In this document: one piece after another, positions 22,282 through 46,022 of the stretch
Layout of the letters: each line of letters begins with the position of its first letter
Numbering within the stretch: the first letter of the stretch is position 1
Translations under genes and position numbers: made by a program
The notes under the pieces: generated by a model
What the model was told of the DNA's origin: nothing
Database searches by the model: none
Seen by the model: only the letters and a program-made list of their open reading frames with translations
Assembly (NCBI RefSeq): GCF_000585335.1
Contig: NZ_KK073872.1
Span: 440,001 to 504,000, forward strand
Direction: 5' to 3'
Length of the DNA: 64,000 nt
DNA from: Cloacibacillus evryensis DSM 19522
GTDB lineage: Bacteria; Synergistota; Synergistia; Synergistales; Synergistaceae

Positions 22282-23598
22282 CTAGTTTTTCTTTCTTCTC
22301 AGCGCCGCCGGGACAATGGCGAGAAGCGCGAGCAGCCCATATCCGGCGCTGCATCCGCCGCTGCCGCCGCCGTCTCCGGAGGGCGTGTCGGGATCTTCAG
22401 GCGTGATCGTCCCGATCGGATTTACGGCGGTGTAAGCGGAAATGTTGCCGCTCAGCGCGTTGCTGCCAAATTCCGTCCAGGAGGAGCCGTCATAGCGCCA
22501 GAGACTGTAGCCGACGCCGGCCCAGAGGTAACCGGTCTTCTCGTCATATACCAGTCCGAGGCGATAACCGTAGTCTCCGTTGAAATCCTTCAGCAGCGTG
22601 CCGAGATCGCCCTTTTGCAGCTTTTCAAGCGTCGTCTCGTAGACCCTGATGCTGTAGCCCGAAGAATAGTCCTCGCCGGCGGTCCATTTGGCGGCCTGTA
22701 CATAGACCTTGTCGCCGGCAAAGGCAACGGCGTCGAACATGTGCTTGAAGGTCGGGTCCTTCGCGTTCATTTCTTCCGCGGTGATGAGGCTCTTGACCTC
22801 CATCGTCGCCAGATTAGCGGCCTCTATGCAGGAGCCGGTGTTCCACTTATCTCCGAACAGCTGAACACCGCCGAGCGTCGCGACATAAAGCATGCCGTCC
22901 TTCTGTGAGTATGCGCCCGGTGTGAAGCCGTCAAGATTCCTGCCCTTCATATCGACGCTCGTAACTTCGTTGAGATCCGCGTCGAGCTTGACGAGACAGT
23001 TTGCCCTGTACGAGCCGTGCTCCGTGTCCCATGGGTCGTTCGCGCCGGTAAAGATGGCGTAGAGACTGCCGTTATAGGCGCACAGGCCCTCGCCGTGTCC
23101 GTCATATTTAGAGTCGTTGTGATAATACTCGTACTTCTTATCCTGTTTGTAGACGTCGCCCGCCGTGGTGACGCGGCTGACGATAGGGATGTCGTAAGCC
23201 GTGGCGTAAAGATTGCCGTTCAGCTCCACCATGGTCCTCGTGTTGTGCAGCGTCGTCGTCGCCTCACGCAGCGGCGCCTTCCACGCCGAGGGCTGCGTCC
23301 ACTGCGACTGCTCGCCGGGGTTATAGATCGAGATGACGTCCGTGCCGTTTGACGTATAGAGTGTCACGGCGACGCGGAAATACCCGTCCGCGTTCTTAAA
23401 CGGATAGATACCCTGCCCGGCGTTTCCTCCCATGTTGCTGACGAGCGGAGAGACGGGGACTCCCGAGCCTTGAATGATGCCTAAGGCGGTGTTGGCATAA
23501 CTGTTGTCCTGTCTTGTGAAGAGCAAGTCGGCCCGGGCCGGCAATGATATCGCCAGCAGGCAGAGGGCCAGCAGCAGTGCGGTAAACTTTTTGTGCAT
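22282..23598 (-). CDS. Beta-propeller-like surface protein with Synergist-CTERM tail (B12-regulated unit C)
   Basis: 438 residues: signal peptide (cut near ARADLL), then blade-like repeats of the type NGNLYATAYD, NGSLYAIFTG, DGMLYVATLGG, GDKVYVQAAKW and TGYLWAGVGYSLWRYDG. It ends with GGGSGGCSAG, a hydrophobic helix and RRKKN. It is clearly paralogous to the protein at 35750 (both begin the mature part with LFTRQ, then NTALG, GSG, PVSPL, N-M-GG and G-GQGI). It is the last gene of a unit that starts behind the cobalamin riboswitch at 28390. By analogy with the B12-binding beta-propeller BtuG of Bacteroides it could bind cobalamin at the surface; this is inference. Confidence 0.75.
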   Translation of the reverse strand: MHKKFTALLLALCLLAISLPARADLLFTRQDNSYANTALGIIQGSGVPVSPLVSNMGGNAGQGIYPFKNADGYFRVAVTLYTSNGTDVISIYNPGEQSQWTQPSAWKAPLREATTTLHNTRTMVELNGNLYATAYDIPIVSRVTTAGDVYKQDKKYEYYHNDSKYDGHGEGLCAYNGSLYAIFTGANDPWDTEHGSYRANCLVKLDADLNEVTSVDMKGRNLDGFTPGAYSQKDGMLYVATLGGVQLFGDKWNTGSCIEAANLATMEVKSLITAEEMNAKDPTFKHMFDAVAFAGDKVYVQAAKWTAGEDYSSGYSIRVYETTLEKLQKGDLGTLLKDFNGDYGYRLGLVYDEKTGYLWAGVGYSLWRYDGSSWTEFGSNALSGNISAYTAVNPIGTITPEDPDTPSGDGGGSGGCSAGYGLLALLAIVPAALRRKKN

Positions 23599-23629
23599 AT
23601 TAGTTCCTCCTCATTTTTATTGGTGACTT

Positions 23630-23662
23630 GGCAAAGCCCGCCTGAAGCCGGCAGGCTTTGCC
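23630..23662 (-). promoter_or_regulatory. Intergenic hairpin before the beta-propeller gene
   Basis: GGCAAAGCC-TGCC…GGCGGGCTTTGCC stem between the GLUG gene and the propeller gene, without a T-run. It may stabilise or attenuate the polycistronic mRNA. Confidence 0.5.
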
Positions 23663-23671
23663 GAATTGCCT

Positions 23672-26095
23672 TTACGACTTCTTCTTTGCGGCGCGCGTAA
23701 GCAGGGGGATCACCGCCAGCAGCATTATGCCGGCGACGCCCGCGTTGCATCCGCCCGACGAACTGCCGGAGGGGGCCGGCGTCTCTTCCGCGAGCTTGAC
23801 TATGGCGACCGGGTCGATAATGGAGCAGTCCGCCGGATCGATGTCAAAACCGCCGTTGTCCTGGATGTAAAGCACCAGCTTGTATGTTTGCGCCGGATCG
23901 ATCTTATCCGTCGGCGCCATTGTCTTATCGTCCATCGTCTGCAGCGTAAAGCGCTTGTTGCCGATGGCGTCCTGATCCTCCGCGTAGGTGAAGAACTCGC
24001 CTGTCCCGTCGGGGCGTGTCTTGACAAGCGCCACCTTCTGCGGCGTCTCTGCCATGAGGCGGTCTCCGCTGATAATCATGCCGGCGGCCGCGATCTTGCC
24101 CGCGGCGCTTACCTTCACTGAGAAGAGCGGCAGAGGAATTATCGCCGTCACTTTAAGATTGTCCCTATCCTCCGCGTCTTTGACAGCCGCGTTCACCGTT
24201 TCGCTGTTAAGGTAAAGGACTCCGTTCAAACCGACTCTGAAGACGGAGACGTCGACGCCGACCGCGGCGGCGATATCTTCTATGACCGCGCTCGTCGCTC
24301 CCACTGGCTTCACCGCGTCGATATAATTAGGAACGGCGTCGCCGGTCGGGATGAATCCGGAGATTTCAACATCTGTCACCGGGTCTCCGACTACCGTTAT
24401 CGAGTCTGAGAATTTACCGTCCGCGGTCGCCGCCGTAAATGTGTAGGCGTAATCCTTTTCATGGCCGGAACGGAGGAGTATCGAAAGATTCCCGTTTCCG
24501 GCATCTTCCATGATGACATCTTCCGACGACGCGGCGCCGCTTACAGCGGAGAGCGTCCAGACGACATCGCGGGCATCGGCGTCCGAAGGTCTTACAGAGG
24601 CTCCCAGCACCCGGGTCTCGCCCTCTTTCCACGCGGTGTTTGAACCGTAGGCCGTAATTCCCTCGACGGGGATCGCGCCTTGCGTGATTTTAAGGACGCC
24701 CTGGACGGAGGCCGTCGTCTCAAAGTTGGAGATATAAACGACAGATCCTCCCGACTGTGACTCGGTATGTCCAAGCAAACCATAGACGTCGGCGGAGATG
24801 ACGGCGAAGAGATCTTCCGTCCCCGCGCCGTCCTTTGCCTTCACGGTGAGCGTCGGCGTTCCCGCTCCCTTTATCACCTCAAGCTTTGACTTGTCCACGC
24901 TCCACGTGTATTTAAGAGAGGAGGCGTCGGCCGTAAGCGGGTATGCGGTGATATGGATATCGCGCGTTTCGCCGCTTTTGATGGTCTTAAGATTATCGGT
25001 ATCCATCGCGACCGCCGTTACCGGAAGCTTTGCGGGGTCGGTGATGCCGCCGACTGGCTGATCGCGGTTTACGGAAAGCCAATAGCAGTTCTGGTAGCCC
25101 CAACCGAAAGCGCCTACGACGCCTCCGACATATCCGGGAGCGCCGGCGAGCTTTTGCGCGGCGGAGACGTTGTCGGCGGTCACAAAACTGTTGAAGCCTC
25201 CGAAGATACCGCCCGCGTCCATCCCTGAGACTATGGAGGGGCTCAGCGCGACGTTATTCAGCACCTCTCCCTTATACCAGTGGGAGAATCCCACGATGCC
25301 GCCCGCGTACGCGAAGGAGGCCGGCGTGGAAAAGACGCTTCCCAGAACGACGTTGTTGCGGATAATGGCATAGGGGTTTCCACTCGTCATATCGTCGCCC
25401 TGCGGCCCGCCGTTGAGCCCCGCGATGCCGCCCGCGTAGCCCCTTTTGGAACTTGTGGCCCGCACTTCGACGTCGGTGACGCAGTTCTCGATGAGGCCGT
25501 CCGCCCAGCCGGCGATACCGCCGACGCCTTCGCATTCGGAGGCGTTGACCTTTCCTTTTACAACAAGGTTTCTCACCTTACCGTCGATGGAAATATAGCC
25601 GAAAAGGCCCGCCGCCTCGGTCTGTTTCGAGCTGTACAGCGGAACGTTTTCGCATGTCTCTATCTTCAGTCCGGAGATCGTATGGCCGCCGCCGTTGAAG
25701 TTGCCGTCGAAGCCCGCATATTCTTTGGTAACAGACCCCCATGATGATTTCTCCGTATAACTAAGATACCATCCGATGGGCGCCCATTCCTTGTCTTCGA
25801 GGTTGATGTCGCGCGTCAGGAGGATGTGCTTGTCCTTGAGGCTCACCTTTGTGACCCCCCATTGGCCGAAGGCGACATTGGTTATCTTCGCGAGGCCGGC
25901 CAGCTCTTCGGGGGAGGAGATCAGAAATGGATTTTCCGCGCTCCCGCGCTCATTCTTGTAATTGTCGTACCATGACGTATCGGGCGTCCACGAATCCGAC
26001 GCGCCTATCATCGAACCGGCAAAGAGAATTACGACGAATATGGCCGCCGCCGCAAGCGCGAGGTTCCGTCCGAGTTTCTTAAAGCTCTTATTCAT
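23672..26095 (-). CDS. GLUG-repeat and Ig-like surface protein with Synergist-CTERM tail (unit C, second gene)
   Basis: 807 residues: N-terminal signal anchor; conserved opening TSWYDNYKN…NPFLISSPEELAGLAKI; GLUG-type repeats (about 140-330: AAGLFGYISI, GVGGIAGWADGLIENCVTD, YAGGIAGLNGG, YAGGIVGFSHW, DAGGIFGGF). Two Ig-like segments (about 370-580) and the pre-tail domain (FKVSAAGKIAAAG … GFDIDPADCSIIDPVAI) follow. It ends with SSSGGCNAG, a hydrophobic stretch and AAKKKS. Its start overlaps the preceding gene by 8 bases. Closely paralogous to the protein at 28950. The ligand is unknown; regulation by cobalamin suggests a role in corrinoid capture. Confidence 0.82.
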   Translation of the reverse strand: MNKSFKKLGRNLALAAAAIFVVILFAGSMIGASDSWTPDTSWYDNYKNERGSAENPFLISSPEELAGLAKITNVAFGQWGVTKVSLKDKHILLTRDINLEDKEWAPIGWYLSYTEKSSWGSVTKEYAGFDGNFNGGGHTISGLKIETCENVPLYSSKQTEAAGLFGYISIDGKVRNLVVKGKVNASECEGVGGIAGWADGLIENCVTDVEVRATSSKRGYAGGIAGLNGGPQGDDMTSGNPYAIIRNNVVLGSVFSTPASFAYAGGIVGFSHWYKGEVLNNVALSPSIVSGMDAGGIFGGFNSFVTADNVSAAQKLAGAPGYVGGVVGAFGWGYQNCYWLSVNRDQPVGGITDPAKLPVTAVAMDTDNLKTIKSGETRDIHITAYPLTADASSLKYTWSVDKSKLEVIKGAGTPTLTVKAKDGAGTEDLFAVISADVYGLLGHTESQSGGSVVYISNFETTASVQGVLKITQGAIPVEGITAYGSNTAWKEGETRVLGASVRPSDADARDVVWTLSAVSGAASSEDVIMEDAGNGNLSILLRSGHEKDYAYTFTAATADGKFSDSITVVGDPVTDVEISGFIPTGDAVPNYIDAVKPVGATSAVIEDIAAAVGVDVSVFRVGLNGVLYLNSETVNAAVKDAEDRDNLKVTAIIPLPLFSVKVSAAGKIAAAGMIISGDRLMAETPQKVALVKTRPDGTGEFFTYAEDQDAIGNKRFTLQTMDDKTMAPTDKIDPAQTYKLVLYIQDNGGFDIDPADCSIIDPVAIVKLAEETPAPSGSSSGGCNAGVAGIMLLAVIPLLTRAAKKKS

Positions 26096-28097
26096 GATTC
26101 TTACCTCCGTTTATGGCGCTCCGTTTTTTTAAAACCGAAGCGGCAAACGGAAGGACCATAAAGAGCGAAAGCCAGCCGTAACCGCCTCCATTGCAGCCGC
26201 CTGAACTGTGCGAACCGCCGTCGGGGGCTTTTTCCTCCGCCGTGTTGACGACGACGTCGGCTGAAAGCTCCGACCCGTCCACCGTATAGGCAGAAAGCAG
26301 ATACTGGGCCCCCGGCACGTATTTGAGCAGGGTCGCCTTCAACTGTCTCGAACTGCCGACGTGCGTCAACTCTATGTCGTCGACCGCCGCCGCGTCGCCC
26401 GAGGTCACCTTAAGGTCCCAGCGTAAAACGGGATACGACACCTCTTCCGCCGGCAGCAGAGAGGCGGTTATGATCTTTGAATCGCCGGCGCCCGTCAGCG
26501 TGACAGACTCCGCGTCAAGCGCGAGAGAGGTGAGCATCACCTTGGTGACGGCGGCGTAGGTCTTTGCCGTCCATGAATTTTCACCGAGGAAGCCGTTTGT
26601 CGAGGCCAGTATATATGTCGCGCCCGCTTTGACGCCCCTGACCAGCGCGCTTTCTCTGACAGAGGAGACTATCGAGGCGACGGTGCTGTCGGCCGTCCCC
26701 CATGACCAGGCGAGACCGTCCGTTTTTCCCGCGGCGGAGGGGAAGGAGATCGCCTTCTGCGTATAGCTTTGGTTCTCCAGTATCCGCACCGTCGGCGCGG
26801 AAATGAGCGCGACGGGCGTCAGCTCGGCGGCGTCGGTCACCTTCGTAACGCTGAGTTTGAGCCTATTTTCGGGAATGTCGACGTCGGCCGCGTAACAGTC
26901 TGAGGGGAACCCCTCTCCCGCCAGCCACTCGCATTGATACATTTTAATATTAGTGGGTTCCGGAATGAATCCTACTAAACTTCCCGCGTGGCCGGAGGAG
27001 TCGGTCTTCATTACGGACGAACAGTGTTCAAAGTCAAGGTCCTGGCTGTTGTCTTTGACACCGGCAATGCCGCCGGCGTTCACAAAGGCGTCTCCCGCCG
27101 CCGCCGACCTGATCTTTATGCTTCCCTGCGCCGAACATCCCACTATTGCCTGCCATTGAACGACTCCTGCTATCCCGCCGGCGTTATTCATATATCCGGC
27201 GCGGTTGATGTTAACCGTGGGATGCTGTCCGCCGATGACGTCAATGTCGCATGAGACGGCGCAATTCGTGAGAGCGGCCCCCGTGCCGGTGGTGCCGGCA
27301 ATGCCCCCCGCGCTGACTGGGCCCACGGCCTCGGCGTTCTTTATCGAACCGCTGAAAAAGCAGTTTTCTATCGGCTGGTTGGCATTTCCACAGAGGCCGC
27401 CCAAGCAGGTAACGGTAGTGTTTTTGTCGTTTCCCGAGTTATCGGTGGTTATATACGCCTCGGCGCTGCAGTTGCGAAGCACCATGGCGCCATATCCGGC
27501 TATCGCTCCGACATATCCGTCGCCGTACCCCTTTACGCTGCCTTTAAAGGAACAGTTTTCTATCGAGCTGGTCGCGGCTGCTCCCTGCGCCCAGCCGGCG
27601 ATGCCGCCGACGCGGTAACCCAGATAGTCTCTTCCCGCGATGGTTTCCGGAGCGACGGAGACATTTCCCGTGACGTTGAGGTTCCTGATATTTAAGGTGA
27701 GACCACCGTTGAGTATGCCGAAGAATCCGATATACTCTCCGCCCGGCGCTCCGCACTTGATAGCGCCGAGGCCGCCTACGGTGTATCCCTGGCCGTCAAA
27801 CAATCCTTTGAATGTTTTCCCCGTTATCCCGATACCCGTCCACACCTTGCCGCCCAGGTCGATATCTTTTCCGAGCTTTACCGTCTTGTTGAGAAAAGTT
27901 TGCGTCCCGTCGTTGACGAGCTTCGCGAGTCCCGCGAGCTCCTCCGGCGTGTTGATCGTAAAGGTGACGTCGGCGGAGTTCGCCTCGTACCAACTGACGT
28001 CGGCGGACTCAATCCAGTCCGCCGCCCGCGCGCTGCCGGCCGGCAATAGAAACGCCGCCATAAGCGCGATAAACATAAATAATATTTTTCTTGACAT
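26088..28097 (-). CDS. GLUG-repeat surface protein with Synergist-CTERM tail (unit C, first gene)
   Basis: 669 residues: signal peptide (cut after ARA), opening SWYEANSADVTFTINTPEEL, then at least five GLUG-like repeats (about 120-380), each of the form GGIAG…NCs (YVGAIAGYG…LRNCSAE, CLGGLCG…IENCFFSG, AGGIAGTTG…LTNCAVS, NAGGIAGVVQ…IVGCSAQG). Ig-like domains follow to about 620. The tail is HSSGGCNGG, a hydrophobic helix, then KKRS with an unusual extra nine or so residues. It is the first gene behind the cobalamin riboswitch at 28390 and is paralogous to the protein at 31272. Confidence 0.82.
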   Translation of the reverse strand: MSRKILFMFIALMAAFLLPAGSARAADWIESADVSWYEANSADVTFTINTPEELAGLAKLVNDGTQTFLNKTVKLGKDIDLGGKVWTGIGITGKTFKGLFDGQGYTVGGLGAIKCGAPGGEYIGFFGILNGGLTLNIRNLNVTGNVSVAPETIAGRDYLGYRVGGIAGWAQGAAATSSIENCSFKGSVKGYGDGYVGAIAGYGAMVLRNCSAEAYITTDNSGNDKNTTVTCLGGLCGNANQPIENCFFSGSIKNAEAVGPVSAGGIAGTTGTGAALTNCAVSCDIDVIGGQHPTVNINRAGYMNNAGGIAGVVQWQAIVGCSAQGSIKIRSAAAGDAFVNAGGIAGVKDNSQDLDFEHCSSVMKTDSSGHAGSLVGFIPEPTNIKMYQCEWLAGEGFPSDCYAADVDIPENRLKLSVTKVTDAAELTPVALISAPTVRILENQSYTQKAISFPSAAGKTDGLAWSWGTADSTVASIVSSVRESALVRGVKAGATYILASTNGFLGENSWTAKTYAAVTKVMLTSLALDAESVTLTGAGDSKIITASLLPAEEVSYPVLRWDLKVTSGDAAAVDDIELTHVGSSRQLKATLLKYVPGAQYLLSAYTVDGSELSADVVVNTAEEKAPDGGSHSSGGCNGGGYGWLSLFMVLPFAASVLKKRSAINGGKNHE

Positions 28098-28261
28098 CGT
28101 TATTTTTCCTCCTTGAAATCACTGCACTTTCTTTGACCCTGTCCTGAAACGCCAAGTCTCTAAAGGTATCAAGTAAAGCCGGGAAAAATAACGCCGCGCT
28201 TCTTTTCGTGAAACAAAAACAGCAACATTCTGGCTCCTTTCTCCGGAGCCGGAAAACCTTA

Positions 28262-28308
28262 CAAAAAGAGGGAGAGAGCGTTCGGCGATGCAAAACGACT
28301 CTCTCCCT
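28262..28308 (-). terminator. Terminator-like expression platform of the unit C riboswitch
   Basis: On the minus strand AGGGAGAGAG pairs with CTCTCTCCCT across a 20-base loop and is followed by CTTTTTG. It lies between the aptamer and the first GLUG gene, as expected for transcriptional control. Confidence 0.75.
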
Positions 28309-28389
28309 TAAAAATATATACGACATCTGTACGCATATAAAATACATGCGGAAGATCGCCGTTCTGCGCCCACTGCGCGTCGCTAACTC

Positions 28390-28600
28390 CGAATCCCCGG
28401 TAGGTCTTCTGGCTTTCGTTCATCCTACTTTACGAAGGCGTTGATGTCCGCTTTCGCATAAACGGCTTGAACTCATAGTCAATGGTTCCGCCGTTTTCCG
28501 CGTCTTCTCACCTTGCGGCAATGACATAATGCGGTTTCGTCCCGATTACAGCAGCAGGGGCTGCCCCGGCATATACCGGATTCCCTGACTCCGCAGATCC
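28390..28600 (-). promoter_or_regulatory. Cobalamin riboswitch (unit C)
   Basis: Read on the minus strand, GGGAATCCGGT…GCCGGGGC, the CTGCTGTAATCGGGACG core and GTAGGATGAACGAAAGCCAG followed by AAGACCTACC are the conserved elements of the adenosylcobalamin aptamer. A terminator-like hairpin lies about 90 bases downstream. It controls the GLUG-GLUG-propeller unit at 28097-22282. Confidence 0.92.
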
Positions 28601-28865
28601 TGAAATTTCATTATACAGTCTAACATGTGAATTATTTCTGTCAAGAACAGGTTCTTGTCAGGATAAACGCCTGTTCATGCAATTGCGTTGGAATGATAAA
28701 CTGCGATTTTGTGCTATGCTCTTTCATTGCTCTGGCCTCCGAGCCGGAGTCTGGTGTCGTTGGTTTTGCTTTACAAGCGGTGGCGGAGCAAACCTGAAGC
28801 CTCTGGATGCTGGGTCAAGCCCGGCATGACAAGATAAATCGCGATGTTTATTATGAGATACTATA

Positions 28866-28895
28866 AGAGCGGGCCGGGAAATTCCGGCCCGCTCT
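28866..28895. terminator. Terminator at the end of unit B
   Basis: AGAGCGGGCCGG-GAAATT-CCGGCCCGCTCT perfect hairpin, downstream of the GLUG gene that ends at 28950. A similar hairpin and flank occur at 39551-39620. Confidence 0.8.
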
Positions 28896-28949
28896 TTGCG
28901 GAGGAGAATTTTCACCGCTGCGGGGACAGCGGGAAAATTGTGAGGTAGG

Positions 28950-31253
28950 CTATTTTTTGCCGCGCCTTCTCAGAAGCGGCAGCGCCGCGAGCAGTGCTAA
29001 CACGGCGAAACCGCCGTTGCAGCCGCCGCTGCTGGAGGACTGTTTCTGCGAGGTCTTTATCAGCGCGAGCGGGTCGACGATGGAGCATTCCGTCGGGTCG
29101 ATGTCGTAAGCGCCGCCGTCCTTCACATATACCACGAGCTTGTAGCTCTTGGACGCCTCAATGGCTCCGTCAGCCGCCAGGACGGAGTCGTCCATGTTCT
29201 GGATCGTGAAGTGGCCGTCCGTATAGTCGGCCGCCGCCGCGGCGTATGTGAGGAAGGTTCCCGTTCCGTCCGGCCGCGTCTTTACGAGCTTGACCTCCTG
29301 CGGCGTGTCCGCCATGAGCTTATCGCCGCTGATGATGAAGGCCGTCACCGCCGTGGCGCCGGCAGCCGAGACCTGGGTTTTGAAGAGCGGAAGCAAAACA
29401 GCCTTTTCAAGGACGACCTTGTCGTCGGAGATCGCGTTTACGATCGCCTTCTGCGCGACGGAGTCCTCGAGATAGACGACGCCGTTCCCGTTGACTTTGA
29501 ACGAGCTCATCGAAGCGCCGAGCGTCTTCACGAGCGTGGCGAGCTGCGACGAGTTGATCCCGTTCGCCTTGACCGCCTCCGTTTCGGCGGTCACGACCCC
29601 GCCGACCGGCAGGATGCTCGATATCTCTTCGCCCTCAATGACAGAGGTCGTTATTGTGACAGAGGCCGAAGCGCCGCCGTCTTCCGCCGTCGCCGTCAGG
29701 GTGTATCCGGCGGCTGTCGTTCCGGCCCGGCGCAGTGTGACGGTCGCGCTGCCGTCGGCGTTTTCAACAAGGGCGATGTCGGAGTCCTGGGCGCCGCCGC
29801 TCGCGGCGCTTATCGTCCACTTGACCCTCTGGTTTTCCGCGTCGGAGGGTTTGCAGGCGGCGGTGAACAGGCGGCTCTCGCCCTCCGTCAGCGCCTCGGC
29901 GTTCCCGCTGATGTTTATTTCGGAGACGGTGATCGTCTTTGACGTCACTTTGAGGAGGCCTCCCGGCGTCACGGCGATGTCCGTGCTGGCCGCGTCCACG
30001 CCGAGGATTCCGGTGACGGAGGCGCTGACGGGGTAGAAGCCCTCTTTATCGGCCCTGACGGTTATCTTTGAGGTTCCCGCGCCCGATACGATCGTGAGGC
30101 CGTCGGCGACGGTCCAGTTGTATTTCAGCGCGGAGGCGTCGCCGGTCGGGGGGTAGGCGGCCGCTTCGATGACGCGCGTCTCGCCTGTTTTCAGCGTTTT
30201 GAAGCTGTCGGGCGTCAGCACGACCGAGGCGATCGGCAGCAGCGCGGGATCGGTGACGCGTCCCTCGGTCTTACTGCCGCCCCAGCCAAATTCAGGCTGC
30301 CCCTCTTTCGCGTAGAGCCAGTAACATTCCGTGTATCCGTAACCGTAGGCGCCGACGATGCCGCCAGTGTAGTTAGGCTGTCCGCCCATGACGTAGTCCG
30401 AGGTGGAGACGCAGTATTTCGTCGTCGAGTTGAAGCCGCCCCAGATCCCGCCGGCGTCTGCCATGCTCACGATCGAAGAGCACATCGCGACGCAGTTTTC
30501 CGTCGCGCCCCTGTACCAGTAGCCGAAGCCCGCAATGCCGCCGGAGTAGGCCGCGCCTACCGAGGACTTAATGCTGCCATAGGTGACACAGTTGCGCACC
30601 TTGCCGCCGCCGATCAGCGAGGCGACGACGCCGGCGTAAGCGTTGCCTTGGCCGGAGGCGTCGAGGTCACAGCTGACGATACAGTTGTAGACGTAGCCGT
30701 CCGTCCAGCCGACGAGGCCCGCCGCGCCGGAGCTCACCTTGTTGGTGACGGAGCCCTCAACATAGACGTTCTGTATCGTGCCGGTCGCCGCGAGGTAGCC
30801 GAAGAGCCCTGTGGTGTTGCTGATCGTGCCGTTTTTGTCGATCTTGCTTCCGGTCCCCTTGGGCATGTATTCGCCCGTCGAGATGAGCATCCCCGTTATT
30901 TTATGGCCGCCGCCGTCAAAGTGTCCGGCGAAACCGCGGAGGTTGCCATAGGCGACCATCCAGCCGATGGGTATCCACTCTTTTTTCGCGAGGTCGACGT
31001 CGAGCGTGAGCGTCACATATTTGTCCTTGAAGTCGTCGGAGCCGGCGTTGACGAGGGCGGCAAAGCCCGCGAGCCCCTCCGCGTCCGCGATCCGGTACGG
31101 ATCGTCGACCGTGCCTTTGGCGGCCGCGGGGCCGTCGTACCAGCTCGTGTCCGTCTTCCAGAACTCCGCCGCCGCCGCGGGGCTGAGCGCGGAGAATGCT
31201 AGGAGCAGTGCGAGCGCCAGCAGGTAAAGTTTGTTTGAGTAAGATTTTTTCAT
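28950..31253 (-). CDS. GLUG-repeat and Ig-like surface protein with Synergist-CTERM tail (unit B, second gene)
   Basis: 767 residues: signal peptide (cut near AAAAEF), opening TDTSWYDGPAA…DPYRIADAEGLAGFAAL, GLUG-like repeats about 150-300 (TTGLFGYLAATG, AAGLVGWTDGYVYNCIVS, YSGGIAGFGYWYRGATENC, DAGGIWGGF). Ig-like segments and the pre-tail domain follow (MADTPQEVKLVKTRPDGTG, YDIDPTECSIVDPLALIK). The end is SSSGGCNGG, a helix and RRRGKK. It matches the protein at 23672 almost domain for domain. It follows the gene at 31272 after 18 bases and shares its riboswitch. Confidence 0.83.
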   Translation of the reverse strand: MKKSYSNKLYLLALALLLAFSALSPAAAAEFWKTDTSWYDGPAAAKGTVDDPYRIADAEGLAGFAALVNAGSDDFKDKYVTLTLDVDLAKKEWIPIGWMVAYGNLRGFAGHFDGGGHKITGMLISTGEYMPKGTGSKIDKNGTISNTTGLFGYLAATGTIQNVYVEGSVTNKVSSGAAGLVGWTDGYVYNCIVSCDLDASGQGNAYAGVVASLIGGGKVRNCVTYGSIKSSVGAAYSGGIAGFGYWYRGATENCVAMCSSIVSMADAGGIWGGFNSTTKYCVSTSDYVMGGQPNYTGGIVGAYGYGYTECYWLYAKEGQPEFGWGGSKTEGRVTDPALLPIASVVLTPDSFKTLKTGETRVIEAAAYPPTGDASALKYNWTVADGLTIVSGAGTSKITVRADKEGFYPVSASVTGILGVDAASTDIAVTPGGLLKVTSKTITVSEINISGNAEALTEGESRLFTAACKPSDAENQRVKWTISAASGGAQDSDIALVENADGSATVTLRRAGTTAAGYTLTATAEDGGASASVTITTSVIEGEEISSILPVGGVVTAETEAVKANGINSSQLATLVKTLGASMSSFKVNGNGVVYLEDSVAQKAIVNAISDDKVVLEKAVLLPLFKTQVSAAGATAVTAFIISGDKLMADTPQEVKLVKTRPDGTGTFLTYAAAAADYTDGHFTIQNMDDSVLAADGAIEASKSYKLVVYVKDGGAYDIDPTECSIVDPLALIKTSQKQSSSSGGCNGGFAVLALLAALPLLRRRGKK

Positions 31254-31271
31254 GGCTTTATCCCTTCCCCT

Positions 31272-33299
31272 CTATCCTTTTTTCCGGAAAAGAAGCGCGC
31301 AGGGCAAAAACAGCGCGAGCGCCGCGAATCCCGCGAATCCCGCGTTGCAGCCGCCGGAGGAGCCGCCGCCCGACGGCTGCGCGGCCGTGGCGGTCAGCAG
31401 TATCGAGTCGGTCAGCGACGAATCGTCGACGCCCCCCGCCGTAATGCGGTAGACGGCGCCCTCGACGTGGTTTTTCAGCGTCACCTTCGCCTTGAGGCTG
31501 CTGTCGCCGAAGGATAGGAGAATATCGTCCGCAGAGGCGTTATCTCCGGATACCACCTCGTATGTCCACTTAAGGACCGGGTAGGAGGGGGTGTCGGAGT
31601 CGGGCAGGATCGTCGCCGTGATATCGGCGCTCGCTCCCGCCGCGTCAAGCGATATCGCCCGCGGCGAGAGTTCGAGCCCCTCCATCTTCACGCGGTAGAC
31701 CGCCGTGCCCGTCACCGGAGTGTAGGTGTTTTCGCCGCCAAGCAGATTACCGCAGGAGAGGTTTATCTTGGTGAAGCCGGCAGCCAGCCCCCTGACGAGC
31801 GCCGATGCGCCGTCGGCCGTGAGGGATGCCACGGATGGGTCTGAGACGTTCCATGAGATCATTACGTCGCTTTTGTTGTAGGCAGCGGTGGGATATACTG
31901 TCGCCGCAAGTGTGAATGATTTGTTTTCAACGAGCCTGATCAGCGGCGTTGTGAGCACGGCCGAGGCCGGCAGATTTGATTCGGATTCCACCGCGTCGTT
32001 GCTGACGATCGCCTTATCTATCCCTATATCTCCGCTGATCTCATTCCAGTTTCCCGCAAGCGGCGCAGGAACGCCTTCGCCCTTAACCCAACGGTTGTTT
32101 ATTATTTTGCATTTGTCCTCTACTTCCCACTCGTTTGTCCAGCGATAAACATATCCCACCAGCGCACCGGCGCAGGCTTTTTCGGGTAGCAGGCTGGAGG
32201 CCGATACTTTGCAGCTGACGGAGCTGTTGTGCGCGTAAGTGTTTCCGCCTGTGCCTGTGACGCCGGCTATTCCGCCGGCCGCTACCCAGTTTTTGCCGTC
32301 TTCGGCATGGAGCTTAACGGTTCCCGCTACGGCGACGTTATTGATGGGACCATCGTTATACCCGGCGACGCCGCCCGCGCAGTTGTAGTCCGAATAGCTG
32401 TCAGTACCAAGACCGCCGCTGACGTCAATGTCGGCGGAAACTACGCAGTTCTGAATGATACAGTTGTTCGAAGAGTTTTCACCGATGATACCGCCGACAC
32501 GCATCCTTGAGAGGTTATCATCGTATTTGATAGAGCCGGTGAAGGCCGAGTTCTCAATCGTGGATTTGGAAAAATTTTTGCCCAAAATGCCGCCGATTAT
32601 CATATAAGCGCCCGCTTTTGCGTTCGCGGCGTCGGCTGTAATGTCGGCGCTCGCGGAGCAGTTGCGGATAGTGCCCGCTTCGTTGTAGCCGATTATACCG
32701 CCGTTAACTTTCCCGGTCATGCCTCTGAGGCGGCCTGTAAAGCTGCAGTTTTCGACGGGTTCGGAATAATAGAGGCGTCCCGCCACGGTGCCGATATAGT
32801 TGTATTTGTCGCCCGAAGCAACGACGTCGCCTTTGAGGATGAAATTCTTGACCGAAGAGTATTGTCCAAGGCAGCCGAAGAGGCCATAATCGCCGTATTT
32901 GTCGGAGGGAAGCGGCGTTATTGTGCCGAGTCCGCTTATCGTATGTCCCCTGCCGTCAAAAGCGCCGGCGAACTTGGCGTTATAATTTCCCACCGGCGAC
33001 CAGACTTTGCCGGAAAGATCTATATCCTTCGCGAGGATTATCATCCGTCCCTTGAAGTCGTTCTTTTTCCCCTCCGCGTCGCCGCTGCCGACGATGACGG
33101 CAAGGCCGGCGAGCTCTTCGGGTGTGCTTATCGTATACGACGAGGCCTCTTTGTCGCTCTCATACCACGCGGTGTCCGCGCTCTCGACCCACGAGCCGTC
33201 CTGCGAGGCGCAGGCCGCCATGACGAGGAGCGTCAGCATCGCAAGCAGCGCAAAGCAGGCGCAGCGCTTTCTTTTGAATGCCGCCAACAAATCAAACAT
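31272..33299 (-). CDS. GLUG-repeat surface protein with Synergist-CTERM tail (unit B, first gene)
   Basis: About 675 residues. I start at the ATG giving MFDLLAAFKRK because AAAGGGG lies upstream; a longer frame begins 11 codons earlier. The signal segment ends LLVMAACAS, so a lipobox-like cysteine may also be present. Opening TAWYESDKEASSYTISTPEEL, GLUG-like repeats about 120-370 (GLFGCLGQ, GTVAGRLYYSEPVENCSF, GGIIGYNEAGTIRNCSAS, GGIIGENSSNNCIIQNCVVS, AAGGIAGVTG), Ig-like segments, then SGGCNAG, a helix and FRKKG. It is paralogous to the protein at 26088 and lies behind the cobalamin riboswitch at 33510. Confidence 0.83.
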   Translation of the reverse strand: MFDLLAAFKRKRCACFALLAMLTLLVMAACASQDGSWVESADTAWYESDKEASSYTISTPEELAGLAVIVGSGDAEGKKNDFKGRMIILAKDIDLSGKVWSPVGNYNAKFAGAFDGRGHTISGLGTITPLPSDKYGDYGLFGCLGQYSSVKNFILKGDVVASGDKYNYIGTVAGRLYYSEPVENCSFTGRLRGMTGKVNGGIIGYNEAGTIRNCSASADITADAANAKAGAYMIIGGILGKNFSKSTIENSAFTGSIKYDDNLSRMRVGGIIGENSSNNCIIQNCVVSADIDVSGGLGTDSYSDYNCAGGVAGYNDGPINNVAVAGTVKLHAEDGKNWVAAGGIAGVTGTGGNTYAHNSSVSCKVSASSLLPEKACAGALVGYVYRWTNEWEVEDKCKIINNRWVKGEGVPAPLAGNWNEISGDIGIDKAIVSNDAVESESNLPASAVLTTPLIRLVENKSFTLAATVYPTAAYNKSDVMISWNVSDPSVASLTADGASALVRGLAAGFTKINLSCGNLLGGENTYTPVTGTAVYRVKMEGLELSPRAISLDAAGASADITATILPDSDTPSYPVLKWTYEVVSGDNASADDILLSFGDSSLKAKVTLKNHVEGAVYRITAGGVDDSSLTDSILLTATAAQPSGGGSSGGCNAGFAGFAALALFLPCALLFRKKG

Positions 33300-33403
33300 A
33301 ATAATGATCCCCTTTCTTACGTTCAGGTTCAAGCAAAAAACATTCTCCCGATGTCCTCAACCGCTGTTTTCCCCGGCGATCACCCCTTTTCAGAGAATTT
33401 TCA

Positions 33404-33443
33404 TAAAAAAGCGGAGAGCCATCAACGACGACAGCTCTCCGCT
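33404..33443 (-). terminator. Terminator-like expression platform of the unit B riboswitch
   Basis: AGCGGAGAGC pairs with GCTCTCCGCT on the minus strand, followed directly by TTTTTT; located between aptamer and gene. Confidence 0.82.
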
Positions 33444-33504
33444 ACGGACACATGTGACAATAGTCCAAATGTTAGGGCCGGCGCTCCATCTGAGCTGCCT
33501 AGGC

Positions 33505-33655
33505 AGTTTCCTCTCCGCGCCAGGTTTCCCGGCTCCCGTTCATCCTCGGCCGCGCCTTCTCATCCTTTCGGACAATGGCTTACGCGGCTTCGTCGCGGTT
33601 ACGGTGACAGTGGTCGCTCCGGCATCACACCGGATTCCCATACTTCGCGAAAAGG
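33505..33655 (-). promoter_or_regulatory. Cobalamin riboswitch (unit B)
   Basis: Minus-strand elements GGGAATCCGGTGTGATGCCGG, GACCACTGTCACCGTAACC and GAGGATGAACGGGAGCCGGG followed by AAACCTGGCG fit the cobalamin aptamer. It directly follows the end of the TonB receptor gene and leads into the GLUG pair of unit B. Confidence 0.9.
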
Positions 33656-33691
33656 CCGATATTCAATTATCCCGCCGTGCTCAGCGGCTCC

Positions 33692-35668
33692 TTAGAACGT
33701 CCACATCAGGGTCGCATAGAATGCCCTGCCTTGTATCGGATACCAGAGCGTGCGCTCCGGTCCGTTGCCGGTGGCGAAGAGCAGCACGTCGGGGCCGGCG
33801 TTGAAGATGTCGTCTACGCCCACCACGAGTTTCAGGTTTTCCCTTATCAGATAGCGCACGCCGAAGCCCACGGTCGTGAGGTTGTCCCAGCCGACCTCGC
33901 CCTGCATGTCATAGTAGTTTTTGCCGATGTGGTGCAGCTCGGCAAAGAGCGTCGCGCGGTCGTCCTTCAATATTTTCCTGCTCACGCGCAGCAGCCCCTC
34001 CCATTCGGGCCGGTTGGGCAGCGGCGTATCGTACATATAGCCGGGGGTCTTGTTCGTGGCGTCCATCCATGTAGCCGAGAGATAAACGTCCCATTTGTCG
34101 CGTTTGACGGTGGCCTCCAGTTCGATGCCGGAGACCTCGGCATCGCCGATGTTCACGTACTGCGCGTAGCGCGGGTTGACCATCAGGTAGTCGATGAGGT
34201 TGTTGGATTTACGGTAGAAGTAGGTCAGCTCGGCCTTGACCTGCGCTTTGGACAGTTCTCCCTCCCAGGAGATACCGGCGTCATACTGTGTGCCGTCCTC
34301 CCATTCGAGCCCCGTGTTGGGGATGATGAAGGCGCCGTCGCCGTAAAGCTCGTAGAGGTTCGGCGCGCGGTTATAGGTGCCGCCCGTCACCTTCGCCGTC
34401 CAGCCTTTGCCGAACTTTTTTGTGAGCGCCGCGCCCCAGGAAAATTCCGTGACGCCCTCCGCCGAGTTCCACCTGACGATGGGGGTGAGCCAGAAGTCTC
34501 CCGCCTTGTTGAGGCTGATAGTGTCCTGTATCTGGCCGTTCCACGAGTTGCGCGTATGGTTCTCGCGGCCGCTGAATTTCTGCACGATGTCGCCGGTGGT
34601 GTGCAGTTCTTCGTTGTAGTAATTCCAGAGGAACTCTACGAGATGGCGGTCGCCGACCGGCAGAGAGCCGTCAACGGCGGTGCCGAAGCGCTTTGTCTCA
34701 TATTTATTATGCTGTTCGCCCCAGCCGCCGATGACGTCGCTCGGGTCGTCGTAGTCCTTGGTCTGGTTGAGGTATTCAAGGCGCAGGCCGAGGTCGAGGT
34801 CGCCGAGCTTCTGGCGGCGGCTCACGATCATGTTCCACTGGTCCGTCACCTGCGTGGCGCCCGCAACGCTGTCCGCTTTGTCGGCGCCGGGGGCCGAGTA
34901 GGGCAGCTCACGGTCGTTGCGTTTCCAGCCTCCCTCGATCTTCCAGTTGTCGTTATTCCATTTAAGCAGGACGTTGGAGTTCTTATAGCCGTTGTTCTGG
35001 CGGTTGGCGTTGTAGTCGTCGCCGGGAGTGTAGGGGGTGTTGTTGTCGTTCAAGTATTCAAAATCGCCGTCGGTGCGGTCGAAGTTGACGGAGGCCATGA
35101 AGGCGCCGCCGCCCAGGGGGCTGTTGTAGGTCGCGCCGCCGGTGAACCTTCCGAATGAGCCGACGCCCATGGTAACGGAGCCGCCGGCCTTTTCGGGTTT
35201 TTTGGTGATGATGTTGATGACGCCGCCCATCGAGGCGCCGCCGAAGCGCGCCGGGATATAGCCGCGGTAGACCTCTATGCGCTCGACGTTTTCCACGGGG
35301 ATCGTCGTGAGGTCGACGGCCGGTTCGCTGCCGAGGTTCATCAGCACACCGTCTACATAGACGGAGACCTGCGAGGCGGAGCTGCCGCGCACGGAGGCGG
35401 TGGTGTAGGCGCCGCGCCCCTTGGTCTCGATGATGTGCAGCCCCGGGACCTGTTTAAGGAGTTCGGGAAGGTTTTTCTGCTCTCCCTTCATCTCCTGCGG
35501 TTTGATGACGGTGACGGTGCCGGGCGACAGCAGCAGCTTGTCCTCTTCCCCCGCGTCGGCGGTGATCTTTTCCGCGGGCAGTTCCGCCGGCCGTTCGGCG
35601 GCCCCGGCGCCGCCCGGCGTCAGGCACAGTAACGATAATAACGCAATGGCAATAAAACTTTTTCTCAC
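33692..35668 (-). CDS. btuB: TonB-dependent outer-membrane receptor, BtuB-like (unit A, second gene)
   Basis: 658 residues: signal peptide (cut after GAGAAE), plug domain (about 50-165: VTVIKPQEMKG, NLPELLKQVPGLHI, ASVRGSSASQVSVYVDGV, VENVERIEVYRGYIPARFG, GGVINIITKKP) and a beta-barrel ending in the aromatic residue of YATLMWTF. The start is a GTG with GAGGGG upstream. It lies behind a cobalamin riboswitch together with a beta-propeller surface protein, so the most likely substrate is cobalamin or another corrinoid, imported with TonB energy. TonB/ExbBD and BtuCDF are not in this window. The name is by context; sequence alone says TonB receptor. Confidence 0.87.
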   Translation of the reverse strand: MRKSFIAIALLSLLCLTPGGAGAAERPAELPAEKITADAGEEDKLLLSPGTVTVIKPQEMKGEQKNLPELLKQVPGLHIIETKGRGAYTTASVRGSSASQVSVYVDGVLMNLGSEPAVDLTTIPVENVERIEVYRGYIPARFGGASMGGVINIITKKPEKAGGSVTMGVGSFGRFTGGATYNSPLGGGAFMASVNFDRTDGDFEYLNDNNTPYTPGDDYNANRQNNGYKNSNVLLKWNNDNWKIEGGWKRNDRELPYSAPGADKADSVAGATQVTDQWNMIVSRRQKLGDLDLGLRLEYLNQTKDYDDPSDVIGGWGEQHNKYETKRFGTAVDGSLPVGDRHLVEFLWNYYNEELHTTGDIVQKFSGRENHTRNSWNGQIQDTISLNKAGDFWLTPIVRWNSAEGVTEFSWGAALTKKFGKGWTAKVTGGTYNRAPNLYELYGDGAFIIPNTGLEWEDGTQYDAGISWEGELSKAQVKAELTYFYRKSNNLIDYLMVNPRYAQYVNIGDAEVSGIELEATVKRDKWDVYLSATWMDATNKTPGYMYDTPLPNRPEWEGLLRVSRKILKDDRATLFAELHHIGKNYYDMQGEVGWDNLTTVGFGVRYLIRENLKLVVGVDDIFNAGPDVLLFATGNGPERTLWYPIQGRAFYATLMWTF

Positions 35669-35692
35669 TTTGGCAGCCCCTCGCTTATATTT

Positions 35693-35734
35693 GCAAAGGC
35701 AGAGCCGGAGTGTGTGCCGGCCCTGCCGCTTTGC
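35693..35734 (-). promoter_or_regulatory. Intergenic hairpin between propeller and receptor genes
   Basis: GCAAAGGCAGAGCCGG paired with CCGGCCCTGCCGCTTTGC, no T-run. It is similar in position to the hairpin at 23630, next to the paralogous propeller gene; possibly an mRNA-stability or attenuation element. Confidence 0.5.
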
Positions 35735-35749
35735 GTATCCGTCCGTTAT

Positions 35750-37033
35750 TTATTGCTTTGCGCTCCTTTTCCCGCGGATGAGAAGCGGGATGAGGGCGAT
35801 CGCCATCAGAGCGGTCGGAATGCCGGCGTTGCAGCCGCCGCTCGAGCCGGAATCCGGCGTCGGTGCTGACGGGACGTTGGCGACAGCGAACTGCGCGAGG
35901 TCGCCCTGCAGCGCGTCCTTGTCATAGGTCGTCCACGCCGCGCCGTCATAGCGGTTGAGGGACGTTCCGGCGGCAACCCAGAGGTAACCGGTCTTTGAAT
36001 CGTAGCTCATGCCCGCGGCCCAGCCGGTGCCGGTGAAGTCCTTGATCATCGTCCCTATATCGCCGGCGGCGAGCTTCTCCGCCGTGGTCTCGTAGACTCT
36101 CATGCTGTAGCCGGAGAAGTCGGCCTTCCATTCGACCGCCTTGATGTAGATCTTATCGCCGGCGACGACGACCGCCTTGAAGAAGTGGTTGAAGGTGTTG
36201 TCTTTCTTATATACGTCGGCGGCGGTGACGAGCGTCTTAGTCGTCATCGCGTCAAGGTCAGCCGCCTCGATGGAGCTGGCCTCGTTGAGCGTGCCGTAGG
36301 GCTGGCTGCCGCCGACCGAGGTCACGTAAAGCGTCGAGCCGGAGAGCGCGTAGGCCCCCTGCCCGCCGCCGTCAAAGTTGAGGCCGGCGAGCGGCAATGT
36401 CGCCGTTTCGTTGAGGTCCGCGTCAAGCTTGACCAGCGTGTTGGGAAGGTAGCTGTAGTTGCCGTAAGTGCCCTTTGAAGCCGAGAAGATCGCGTAGACG
36501 GAGCCGTTGTACGTTACCAACCCCTCTCCGTGCCCGCTGTAGCCCTCCTGCGGTTCGAATTCGAGCGTCGCCAGCTCCTTATAATCGTCGCTCGACGTCG
36601 ATATCTTGCTCACGACCGCATTCGCGTATGAGATGCCGTAGAGATAGCCGTTCATCGCCTTCATGGCGCGCGTGTTGAAGAGTGAGGTCGTGATCTCCGC
36701 CGCCGGTTTGGCCCAGACGTCCGCCTTGCTCCAGTCCTCCTCCGCGCCCGGCGAGTAGACGTTGATCGTATCTACAGCCGCGCCTGATCCATAGAGCGAG
36801 ATCGCCACACGGTAACCGCCTTCGGCGTTCGTGAAGCCGAAGATGCCCTGCCCGGAGTCCCCGCCCATGTTGCCGATGAGCGGCGATACGGGAGCGCCGC
36901 TTCCGTTGATGACGCCGAGCGCGGTGTTCGAATAGTTCGTCTGCCTCGTGAAGAGCACGTCGGCTGACGCCGGAAGGACAGTGAATAACGCCAGCGCGAT
37001 GATAAGAAGTAACGATAATGTTTTTTTGCGCAT
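35750..37033 (-). CDS. Beta-propeller-like surface protein with Synergist-CTERM tail (unit A, first gene)
   Basis: 427 residues from the ATG preceded by GGAGGAG nine bases upstream (the frame is open two codons further, from a TTG). The signal peptide ends PASADV; blade-like repeats follow (NGYLYGISYA, NGSVYAIFSAS, GSTLYVTSVGG, GDKIYIKAVEW, TGYLWVAAGTSLNRYDG), and the end is SGGCNAG, a helix and RGKRSAKQ. It is paralogous to the 438-residue protein at 22282. It lies between a cobalamin riboswitch and a BtuB-like receptor, the same arrangement as the B12-binding propeller BtuG beside BtuB in Bacteroides, but with a different anchor. Cobalamin binding is inferred. Confidence 0.77.
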   Translation of the reverse strand: MRKKTLSLLLIIALALFTVLPASADVLFTRQTNYSNTALGVINGSGAPVSPLIGNMGGDSGQGIFGFTNAEGGYRVAISLYGSGAAVDTINVYSPGAEEDWSKADVWAKPAAEITTSLFNTRAMKAMNGYLYGISYANAVVSKISTSSDDYKELATLEFEPQEGYSGHGEGLVTYNGSVYAIFSASKGTYGNYSYLPNTLVKLDADLNETATLPLAGLNFDGGGQGAYALSGSTLYVTSVGGSQPYGTLNEASSIEAADLDAMTTKTLVTAADVYKKDNTFNHFFKAVVVAGDKIYIKAVEWKADFSGYSMRVYETTAEKLAAGDIGTMIKDFTGTGWAAGMSYDSKTGYLWVAAGTSLNRYDGAAWTTYDKDALQGDLAQFAVANVPSAPTPDSGSSGGCNAGIPTALMAIALIPLLIRGKRSAKQ

Positions 37034-37129
37034 TTTCAAATTCTCCTCCTGATGATCGATTTTTTATTAAGATTCTGCCGCAAACAGAACTTAAACAAAC
37101 TATGGAACGCCAAACTCCGCCTATATACA

Positions 37130-37171
37130 CGAACACACGCGGGAGAGCGATGACACCGTCTCCCGCGTGTG
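37130..37171 (-). promoter_or_regulatory. Hairpin downstream of the unit A riboswitch
   Basis: Perfect 13-base arms CACACGCGGGAGA and TCTCCCGCGTGTG. The following sequence on the minus strand is TTCGTGTATATA, so the U-run is poor; it may act as terminator or as a structure regulating translation. Confidence 0.55.
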
Positions 37172-37224
37172 ATATATACGTCGGTCAGCCGCTGCCATGC
37201 GCCCGCTGCGCATTTAAAGCCATT

Positions 37225-37372
37225 CTATCTCCGCGGCAGGTTTCCCGACTCTCGATCATCCTGGGCTGCGCCTTCCCATCTTTTGACAGTGGCATAATGC
37301 AGCTTCGTCCCGATTACGGTGGCAGGGGCCGTTCCGGCATTTGACCGGATTCCCATACTCCGAAGAAAATAT
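37225..37372 (-). promoter_or_regulatory. Cobalamin riboswitch (unit A)
   Basis: Minus-strand GGGAATCCGGTCAAATGCCGG, AACGGCCCCTGCCACCGTAA, GGGACGAAGC, GCCACTGTC (B12 box) and CAGGATGATCGAGAGTCGGG followed by AAACCTGCCG. It controls the propeller-BtuB pair. Confidence 0.92.
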
Positions 37373-37549
37373 TTTATTATGGTCAAAACAAGATCCAAAA
37401 CCTTATACGTAAACTATCACGGCTTTGCCTCATTGTCAATTATGAACATACATTATAAATTGCCCAAATAATCAATCAAAGAACCTGTTTGTAAAACTCC
37501 GCCCCGCGACACACTATTATAGTTATCAAACACGAAAGGAGGAAATCAA

Positions 37550-41020: not shown

Positions 41021-41023
41021 AGC

Positions 41024-45436: not shown

Positions 45437-45473
45437 ATTACAGCTTCCCTTCCAGATAAAGTTTAAGCGGGCA

Positions 45474-45503
45474 AACAAAAAAGACCGCCTGCGGGCGGTC
45501 TTG
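45474..45503 (-). terminator. Intrinsic terminator of the mutA riboswitch
   Basis: On the minus strand AAGACCGCCCGCAGGCGGTC followed by TTTTTTGTTT forms a strong hairpin and U-run just before mutA. Its 5' arm (CCGCCCGC, from 45491-45498) is exactly complementary to GCGGGCGG read from 45556-45563, which lies between aptamer and terminator, giving a clear antiterminator alternative. Confidence 0.88.
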
Positions 45504-45583
45504 CAAAAGTTGTCGGCGAGTAGATAAAGGTGTTTCTAAACGCACTCGACGACCCCCGCCCGCGCAGGGATTGCCGCAACCTC

Positions 45584-45722
45584 TATGCAGACCGGTCTCC
45601 TGGCTTCCGTTCATCCTACTTTCCGCGCCTTCCTGAGTCGCCTCAGTGGCATCGCGGTTTCGTCACGGTTACAGTGGCGGGGCCGTTCAGGATTTACACC
45701 TGATTCCCGAGCATCTGCATCA
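45584..45722 (-). promoter_or_regulatory. Cobalamin riboswitch of the mutA-mutB-meaB operon
   Basis: Minus-strand P1 arm ATGCAGATGCTC, GGGAATCAGGTGTAAATCCTG, the GCCCCGCCACTGTAACC core with B12 box and GTAGGATGAACGGAAGCCAG followed by GAGACCGGTC, closing with GCATAG. All conserved blocks of the adenosylcobalamin aptamer are present. Whether ligand turns the operon on or off cannot be read directly. Confidence 0.93.
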
Positions 45723-46022
45723 ATACTACATTCTGCGTTTATGATACGCTTAAAGGGTCTGTTTCGTCAATCTTTTTCTTTTGTCTGACGTTTGTGAATA
45801 TTTCCGCGTCAATTGCGGGGCGGTTTGCGCGGACCGAGAAAGTTTTGATCCGGCTCTCCGGCCGCCTCATCAAGAAAGCTGAAGTTCTTTGAAAAATCGG
45901 CGTTTATACTCGCGGGGATTGCTTAGTTATAATTTATTTTTGTCCGCCATTTTTTTTATATTTACTGTGAGAATATTGTAGAATAGATAGTGCTTAACAG
46001 TTGGTGAAAGGATGATAGATAA

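Follow-up and report, generated by a model that had tools for sequence, protein, structure and literature searches.

What do three cobalamin riboswitches control when they stand in a row on one strand, ahead of genes for surface proteins with no obvious link to vitamin B12? This question is raised by a locus of Cloacibacillus evryensis DSM 19522, in a stretch of 64,000 nucleotides (contig NZ_KK073872.1, positions 440,001 to 504,000; the window in what follows). Cobalamin riboswitches mostly govern the transport or synthesis of B12, and BtuB-type receptors are typical targets. Here, a TonB-dependent receptor is only one of seven proteins encoded behind the three riboswitches, the others being two propellers and four proteins of the GLUG kind. 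The first-pass annotation proposed that GLUG proteins and propellers together capture corrinoid outside the cell. A riboswitch-controlled surface system for B12 is well supported, but the element that recurs across the phylum and resembles a known B12 catcher, BtuG, is the propeller and not GLUG. We consider it probable that the locus is a corrinoid capture and import system of the BtuG/BtuB type, anchored at the C-terminus and fitted with lineage-specific GLUG accessories, in which the binding of corrinoid is deduced from homology and context.

Riboswitches and gene order

Searched with the covariance model RF00174 (gathering threshold 31.5 bits), the window gives four matches, all on the minus strand, with scores of 65–98 bits and covering model positions 1–189 (Table 1). 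Three of them, at 65–82 bits, are the riboswitches that had been read by eye at 37225, 33505 and 28390, positions which correspond to the 3' end of each. A hairpin lies behind every one of the three, as had also been noticed, with z-scores of -3.4 to -4.5 and a fold that beats all shuffles; the hairpins behind RS2 and RS3 have a U run at their end and resemble intrinsic terminators. RF00174 has 8 sites in the entire genome (a single contig of 3.49 Mb), so that a group of three on the same strand within 9 kb cannot be put down to chance.

The seven genes, also all on the minus strand, form three units as first described: prop2 with the TonB receptor, glugD with glugC, and glugB with glugA and prop1. 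They include paralogous sets that align over nearly their full length, with identities of 49% (prop1/prop2), 38% (glugA/glugC) and 35% (glugB/glugD). The description of four GLUG-repeat proteins holds for two of them by Pfam: glugB and glugD alone reach the cut-off of the GLUG model (PF07581), glugA stays under it and glugC has no match at all. Despite these unequal scores, glugC is a full-length paralogue of glugA, and glugB of glugD; we call the two pairs the AC and BD types. In a genome of the same genus (G137), a glugA orthologue with 87% identity lies in a riboswitch operon, and there the genes follow each other on one strand as BD-AC-BD-AC-receptor-propeller behind a single riboswitch (L073). 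What is conserved is thus the gene set; three riboswitches in a row are one way of arranging it and do not define it.

Table 1. Features of the riboswitch-controlled locus and its neighbourhood (window positions).
Feature	Position	Strand	Evidence	Remark
RS1, cobalamin riboswitch	37218..37420	-	RF00174 82.3 bits	heads prop2-TonB receptor
RS2, cobalamin riboswitch	33502..33664	-	RF00174 70.4 bits	heads glugD-glugC
RS3, cobalamin riboswitch	28382..28610	-	RF00174 65.4 bits	heads glugB-glugA-prop1
Fourth cobalamin riboswitch	45573..45733	-	RF00174 97.9 bits	heads mutA-mutB-meaB
GC-rich hairpin after RS1	37134..37171 (about)	-	fold of 37080-37217, z -3.4	clean U run absent
Terminator-like hairpin after RS2	33410..33443	-	15-bp stem + TTTTTT	
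Terminator-like hairpin after RS3	28268..28309 (about)	-	fold of 28240-28381, z -4.5	followed by TCTTTTT
prop2, secreted beta-propeller, BtuG-like	35750..37039	-	AF2 model; BtuG3 fold match; TIGR04564 33.9 bits	Synerg-CTERM
BtuB-like TonB-dependent receptor	33692..35668	-	Pfam Plug PF07715 and beta-barrel PF00593	
glugD, BD type	31272..33332	-	Pfam GLUG 63.5 bits; TIGR04564	signal peptide; Synerg-CTERM
glugC, AC type	28950..31253	-	PKD; TIGR04564 36.4 bits	PKD domain; Synerg-CTERM
glugB, BD type	26088..28097	-	Pfam GLUG 33.1 bits; AF2 model; fold search	Synerg-CTERM
glugA, AC type	23672..26095	-	sub-threshold GLUG; TIGR04564	Synerg-CTERM
prop1, second BtuG-like propeller	22282..23598	-	49% to prop2; TIGR04564 35.5 bits	Synerg-CTERM
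mutA-mutB-meaB, B12-dependent enzyme operon	39881-45478	-	Pfam MM_CoA_mutase, MeaB	

Elsewhere in this genome, with downstream genes read by eye, one riboswitch stands ahead of another TonB receptor gene (L028), one ahead of an operon for cobalamin synthesis (L029) and one ahead of a separate btuF-D-C-exbD-tonB-like operon (L031). An unusual target is an operon of aconitase-like, isocitrate dehydrogenase-like and citrate-lyase-like genes, also read by eye, behind the riboswitch near 3382–3539 of L030 (genome 725382–725539, plus strand). The fourth riboswitch of the window heads genes of a B12-dependent enzyme; a repressing logic would be odd at this place, and an activating switch is therefore possible. 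A riboswitch with mutA-mutB-meaB seemingly also lies beside the riboswitch-receptor-propeller genes in G137, G166 and G170 (L074, L083 and L077). Elsewhere in the window there is a group II intron RNA at 10872–11164, followed by open reading frames at 11205–12630 (plus strand) that are seemingly broken frames of a reverse transcriptase.

The propeller and its receptor

BtuG is a seven-bladed propeller with femtomolar affinity for corrinoids that caps BtuB like a lid (PMC6143338, PMC10404256), and on the basis of BLASTP it has been reported to be restricted to the Bacteroidetes (PMC6143338). The propellers of the window do not reveal such a relationship easily. No Pfam model describes the family; annotation through Pfam, NCBIfam and single-sequence searches of the PDB yielded just weak matches to kelch and designed propellers, and a single-sequence phmmer search of the PDB did not find BtuG. 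Modelled with AF2, the prop2 ectodomain (mean pLDDT 93.5, pTM 0.92) has the beta-propeller fold that had been suspected for both proteins; prop1 is assigned by its identity to prop2. When this model was compared with 350,542 PDB chains in Foldseek, three chains of 8OKV, which is BtuG3 with bound cyanocobalamin (PMC10404256), ranked first (E 1.1e-9 to 5e-9), and the next protein was NirF (E 3e-7). The TM-scores against BtuG3 are moderate (0.59/0.68), at 12% identity. Many other propellers also score significantly and the structures of BtuG1 and BtuG2 are absent among the best 50 matches, so the fold match taken alone is suggestive.

A second line of evidence comes from profiles. A profile of 25 family members, run against the sequences of the PDB, finds BtuG1 (8blw_B) together with 8ptd and 8ptf at E about 1e-3; the latter two are near-identical matches to 8blw_B and align at equivalent positions. 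With the profile widened to 37 members by held-out sequences, BtuG1 is found at whole-sequence E-values of 6e-9 to 3e-8, its best stretch (E 1.6e-5) covering about 65 residues, or one blade. BtuG1 leads the natural sequences of the PDB in this search, all others having E > 0.02; designed kelch repeat proteins reach similar scores, which presumably reflects the summing of their repeats. The propellers and BtuG1 share the motif GKN...LYVxxxGG, and its Asn is the sole residue that is invariant in 37/37 members. Judged by profile and fold, we take the propeller to be a remote homologue of BtuG that would work like it, and do not file it as BtuG.

The receptor had been called BtuB-like, and it is recognised by its plug and barrel domains, by its match to Escherichia coli BtuB in the PDB (E 2e-21) and by TIGR01779 (vitamin B12 receptor) as its best NCBIfam model. 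Its score of 168 bits lies far below the equivalog cut-off of that model (599.7), which is why we keep the name BtuB-like. Nine receptors paired with a propeller, each from a different genome, likewise have TIGR01779 as best model without exception, below the cut-off, with siderophore and haem receptor models ranking next. For the second receptor of the genome (L028), which has no propeller beside it, a haem receptor model comes first by a small margin.

One may ask if the ligand is another one (a siderophore, haem or a cobalt complex, for example), whose uptake supports cobalt or corrinoid metabolism and is for that reason under riboswitch control. The moderate likeness of the receptor to BtuB and the runner-up models leave room for this, as does the presence of the ferrichrome-binding propeller lipoprotein XusB at rank 9 in the fold search with prop2. 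Nevertheless, the B12 receptor model is the best one for every partner tested, BtuG is both the best fold match and the best natural sequence match, and the system is under cobalamin riboswitches in at least five families. Moreover, in L095 and L096 genes like btuF, btuD and btuC lie between riboswitch and propeller in the same operon. Together, these observations make a different ligand unlikely.

Conservation across the Synergistota

The propeller was sought in 188 Synergistota genomes from 63 genera. A single-sequence search found it in 31 genomes, and the profile in 67, which belong to 35 of the genera. Some of the weakest profile matches cover the CTERM tail alone; these were left out of the linkage counts, which are based on 73 propellers of at least 150 bits and count RF00174 matches upstream on the same strand. 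Such a riboswitch lies within 3 kb of 41/73 propellers and within 12 kb of 56/73. For propellers held out from profile building, the numbers are 18/31 and 22/31. A genome of about 2.5 Mb has 4.7 riboswitches on average, so that chance would place one within 3 kb for about 0.3% of propellers, and the enrichment is about 200-fold.

For 17 of the 73 propellers no RF00174 match was found within 12 kb. Several of these are at contig ends and some belong to a long cluster in G039; the unexplained ones include those of G160, G155 and three of G157. A permissive re-search at L088, L089, L097, L105 and L108 brought nothing new: at L088 an AdoCbl match below threshold coincides with a weak match known before, and the match at L089 was known. 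For L105 and L108 the whole-genome search places riboswitches 6–8 kb upstream, beyond the stretches examined there. A search of genome contigs for related loci gave just two, both from Synergistaceae-type MAGs.

The receptor is a regular companion of the propeller. A BtuB-like gene lies on the same strand at a distance of at most 2.5 kb for 31/41 propellers of the first set, and in 20 held-out loci it is found within 200 bp in 17, with the propeller ending in a Cys-containing CTERM-like tail in all 20. The conserved core of the system is the pair of propeller and BtuB-like receptor, and GLUG proteins are not part of it. A simple coincidence, in which the riboswitches govern their immediate neighbours alone and generic Synerg-CTERM proteins happen to lie nearby with no joint role, could draw on the 19 Synerg-CTERM genes of this genome and on the generic GLUG proteins found elsewhere in it. 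Given conservation over 35 genera, the riboswitch enrichment and its recurrence in the held-out set, and the gene fusions described below, such an explanation is hardly credible.

In a riboswitch-receptor-propeller cluster of G170, there is also a CTERM protein with a flavin-reductase-like domain (Pfam PF01613; L076 11311–12153, plus strand), which might reduce corrinoid at the surface.

The GLUG proteins

It had been proposed to check whether GLUG/CTERM genes elsewhere in the Synergistota are associated with cobalamin riboswitches. This is the case for the AC type, where about 14/17 relatives with E <= 1e-15 are in clusters headed by a cobalamin riboswitch (the exceptions being G036, on a short contig with no riboswitch, and the weak matches G095 and G144). 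Every BD-type match above 100 bits belongs to these clusters as well, and once more the G036 contig is the one that lacks a visible riboswitch. The two subfamilies occur essentially only in such riboswitch loci. It is not the case for generic GLUG proteins: RF00174 was not found at the weaker, generic GLUG loci of Synergistota, which are often CTERM-tailed, and the idea that any GLUG-CTERM gene is riboswitch-linked was dropped. Two fusions are worth noting. G128 has an 836-residue protein that joins the propeller, an AC-type GLUG part and the CTERM, behind riboswitch and receptor, and G170 has a 1444-residue BD-AC fusion directly behind the riboswitch.

In the AF2 model of glugB (pLDDT 85.7), a beta-solenoid leads into a pair of Ig-like domains. 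A B12-binding fold for glugB was considered and rejected; no B12 binder is among the 50 PDB fold matches listed, and the best come from Ig-like modules found in titin, in S-layer proteins and in adhesins. For the solenoid part, no informative match is among those listed. At L072 (9010–12585) and L094 (4734–8069), CTERM solenoid proteins of the right-handed beta-helix kind follow the receptor, as if solenoid accessories were interchangeable among loci.

The functional association of the GLUG proteins with the B12 system is strong, while corrinoid binding by them is hypothetical, and their role is the weakest part of our reading. Co-regulation and fusion are directly observed; the biochemical role we infer. 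One tentative idea is that the AC and BD proteins form a new class that handles corrinoid at the surface; they would bind B12, or B12 held by other carriers, and deliver it to propeller and receptor. To a similar degree it is conceivable that propeller and receptor are the B12 importer and that the GLUG proteins never contact corrinoid, serving just adhesion or envelope stability; made in B12 shortage, they would attach the cell to corrinoid-producing partners or host surfaces. The elongated model with its adhesin-like modules agrees with such a role, as do the other solenoid CTERM proteins (right-handed beta-helix, LRR) put in the same place by other lineages and the fact that most genomes with the propeller have neither GLUG type at its loci. 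A pure adhesin explains less well why two ordered types are retained and duplicated together, almost exclusively in these loci, and why one is fused to the propeller.

Surface anchoring

Six of the seven proteins had been credited with Synergist-CTERM tails, and six score 23.4–36.4 bits with TIGR04564 (Synergist_CTERM; curated cut-off 22.5 bits), the TonB receptor being the exception. By inspection, the signal peptides of the propellers have no lipobox Cys, and the C-terminal Synerg-CTERM takes its place. The start of glugD (33180–33332, minus strand) has the lipobox-like LLVMAAC-ASQDG, and lipidation at its N-end is possible.

In the similar MYXO-CTERM system, a CPBP-family intramembrane protease (myxosortase) is required, surface anchoring has been shown and attachment of lipid to the Cys has been proposed (PMC11980579). 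Synerg-CTERM has the same tripartite plan with an invariant Cys, and the single CPBP-family protein and the two secretins of this genome could fill the same roles. This is compatible with a similar route, with the difference that processing of the tag is known for MYXO-CTERM and predicted for Synerg-CTERM; protease and tag are not linked here.

A model, and how it compares with known systems

The architecture of propeller and receptor is evident from gene order, fold and profile similarity, and the following steps would turn it into an uptake system. At high cellular B12 the riboswitches would halt transcription through the terminators after RS2 and RS3, and when B12 is scarce the units would be expressed; we infer repression because terminators are present and because this is the usual action of the riboswitch class. 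Propellers and GLUG proteins would cross the inner membrane by means of their signal peptides. The Synerg-CTERM (Cys, transmembrane helix and basic end) would, by analogy with MYXO-CTERM, be processed such that the proteins are held on the cell surface. Corrinoid would be bound by the propeller and passed on to the BtuB-like receptor beside it, on which the propeller would probably sit as a lid, as BtuG does on BtuB in Bacteroides. Import would be powered by TonB, and BtuFCD would carry the corrinoid into the cytoplasm. The GLUG proteins, with their long beta-solenoids and Ig-like domains, would be lineage-specific accessories that may extend the capture complex, scaffold it or add binding sites.

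The BtuB-BtuFCD system of E. coli likewise has a TonB-dependent receptor under a cobalamin riboswitch, and this genome has, separately, the btuF-D-C-exbD-tonB-like operon behind its own riboswitch (L031). The systems differ in that E. coli is not known to have a surface capture protein or any CTERM proteins. Closer in layout are BtuB1G1, B2G2 and B3G3 of Bacteroides thetaiotaomicron (PMC6143338, PMC10404256), where a gene for a surface propeller also lies beside that of a TonB-dependent transporter in cobalamin riboswitch loci. In both cases there are several loci per genome, btuF/C/D-like genes are sometimes present, and domains can be fused to the propeller (BtuH in BtuG1 there, GLUG in G128 here). 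Here, however, the phylum is Synergistota and the sequence similarity is remote, a C-terminal Synerg-CTERM stands in for the N-terminal lipobox with export signal, GLUG proteins replace the accessories BtuH and BtuJ, and corrinoid binding is predicted. BtuH and BtuJ (DUF4465) are accessory surface proteins beside btuB in riboswitch loci as well (PMC8941943, PMC13398666), but with jelly roll and other folds instead of a GLUG solenoid, and their binding of B12 is proven whereas that of GLUG proteins is hypothetical.

In a literature search by titles, abstracts and counts of openly accessible papers, no work joins Synergistetes with cobalamin riboswitches, or BtuG with Synergistota, or GLUG proteins with a B12 uptake system, the last in line with the first-pass remark that no B12 system built from GLUG proteins was known.

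Implications

If a remote BtuG homologue in the same gene context across 35 Synergistota genera holds, propeller-assisted uptake of B12 would be older or more widely shared than thought, and the surface anchoring of B12 propellers would have been solved in two different ways. Should the GLUG proteins prove to be binders, the system would differ from all described B12 systems in having a beta-solenoid as binder and Synerg-CTERM as anchor. A protein family outside Pfam, two GLUG subfamilies and some of the Synerg-CTERM proteins gain a testable function. The organisms concerned are little-studied anaerobic bacteria, and the system points to competition for B12 by Synergistota within their communities.
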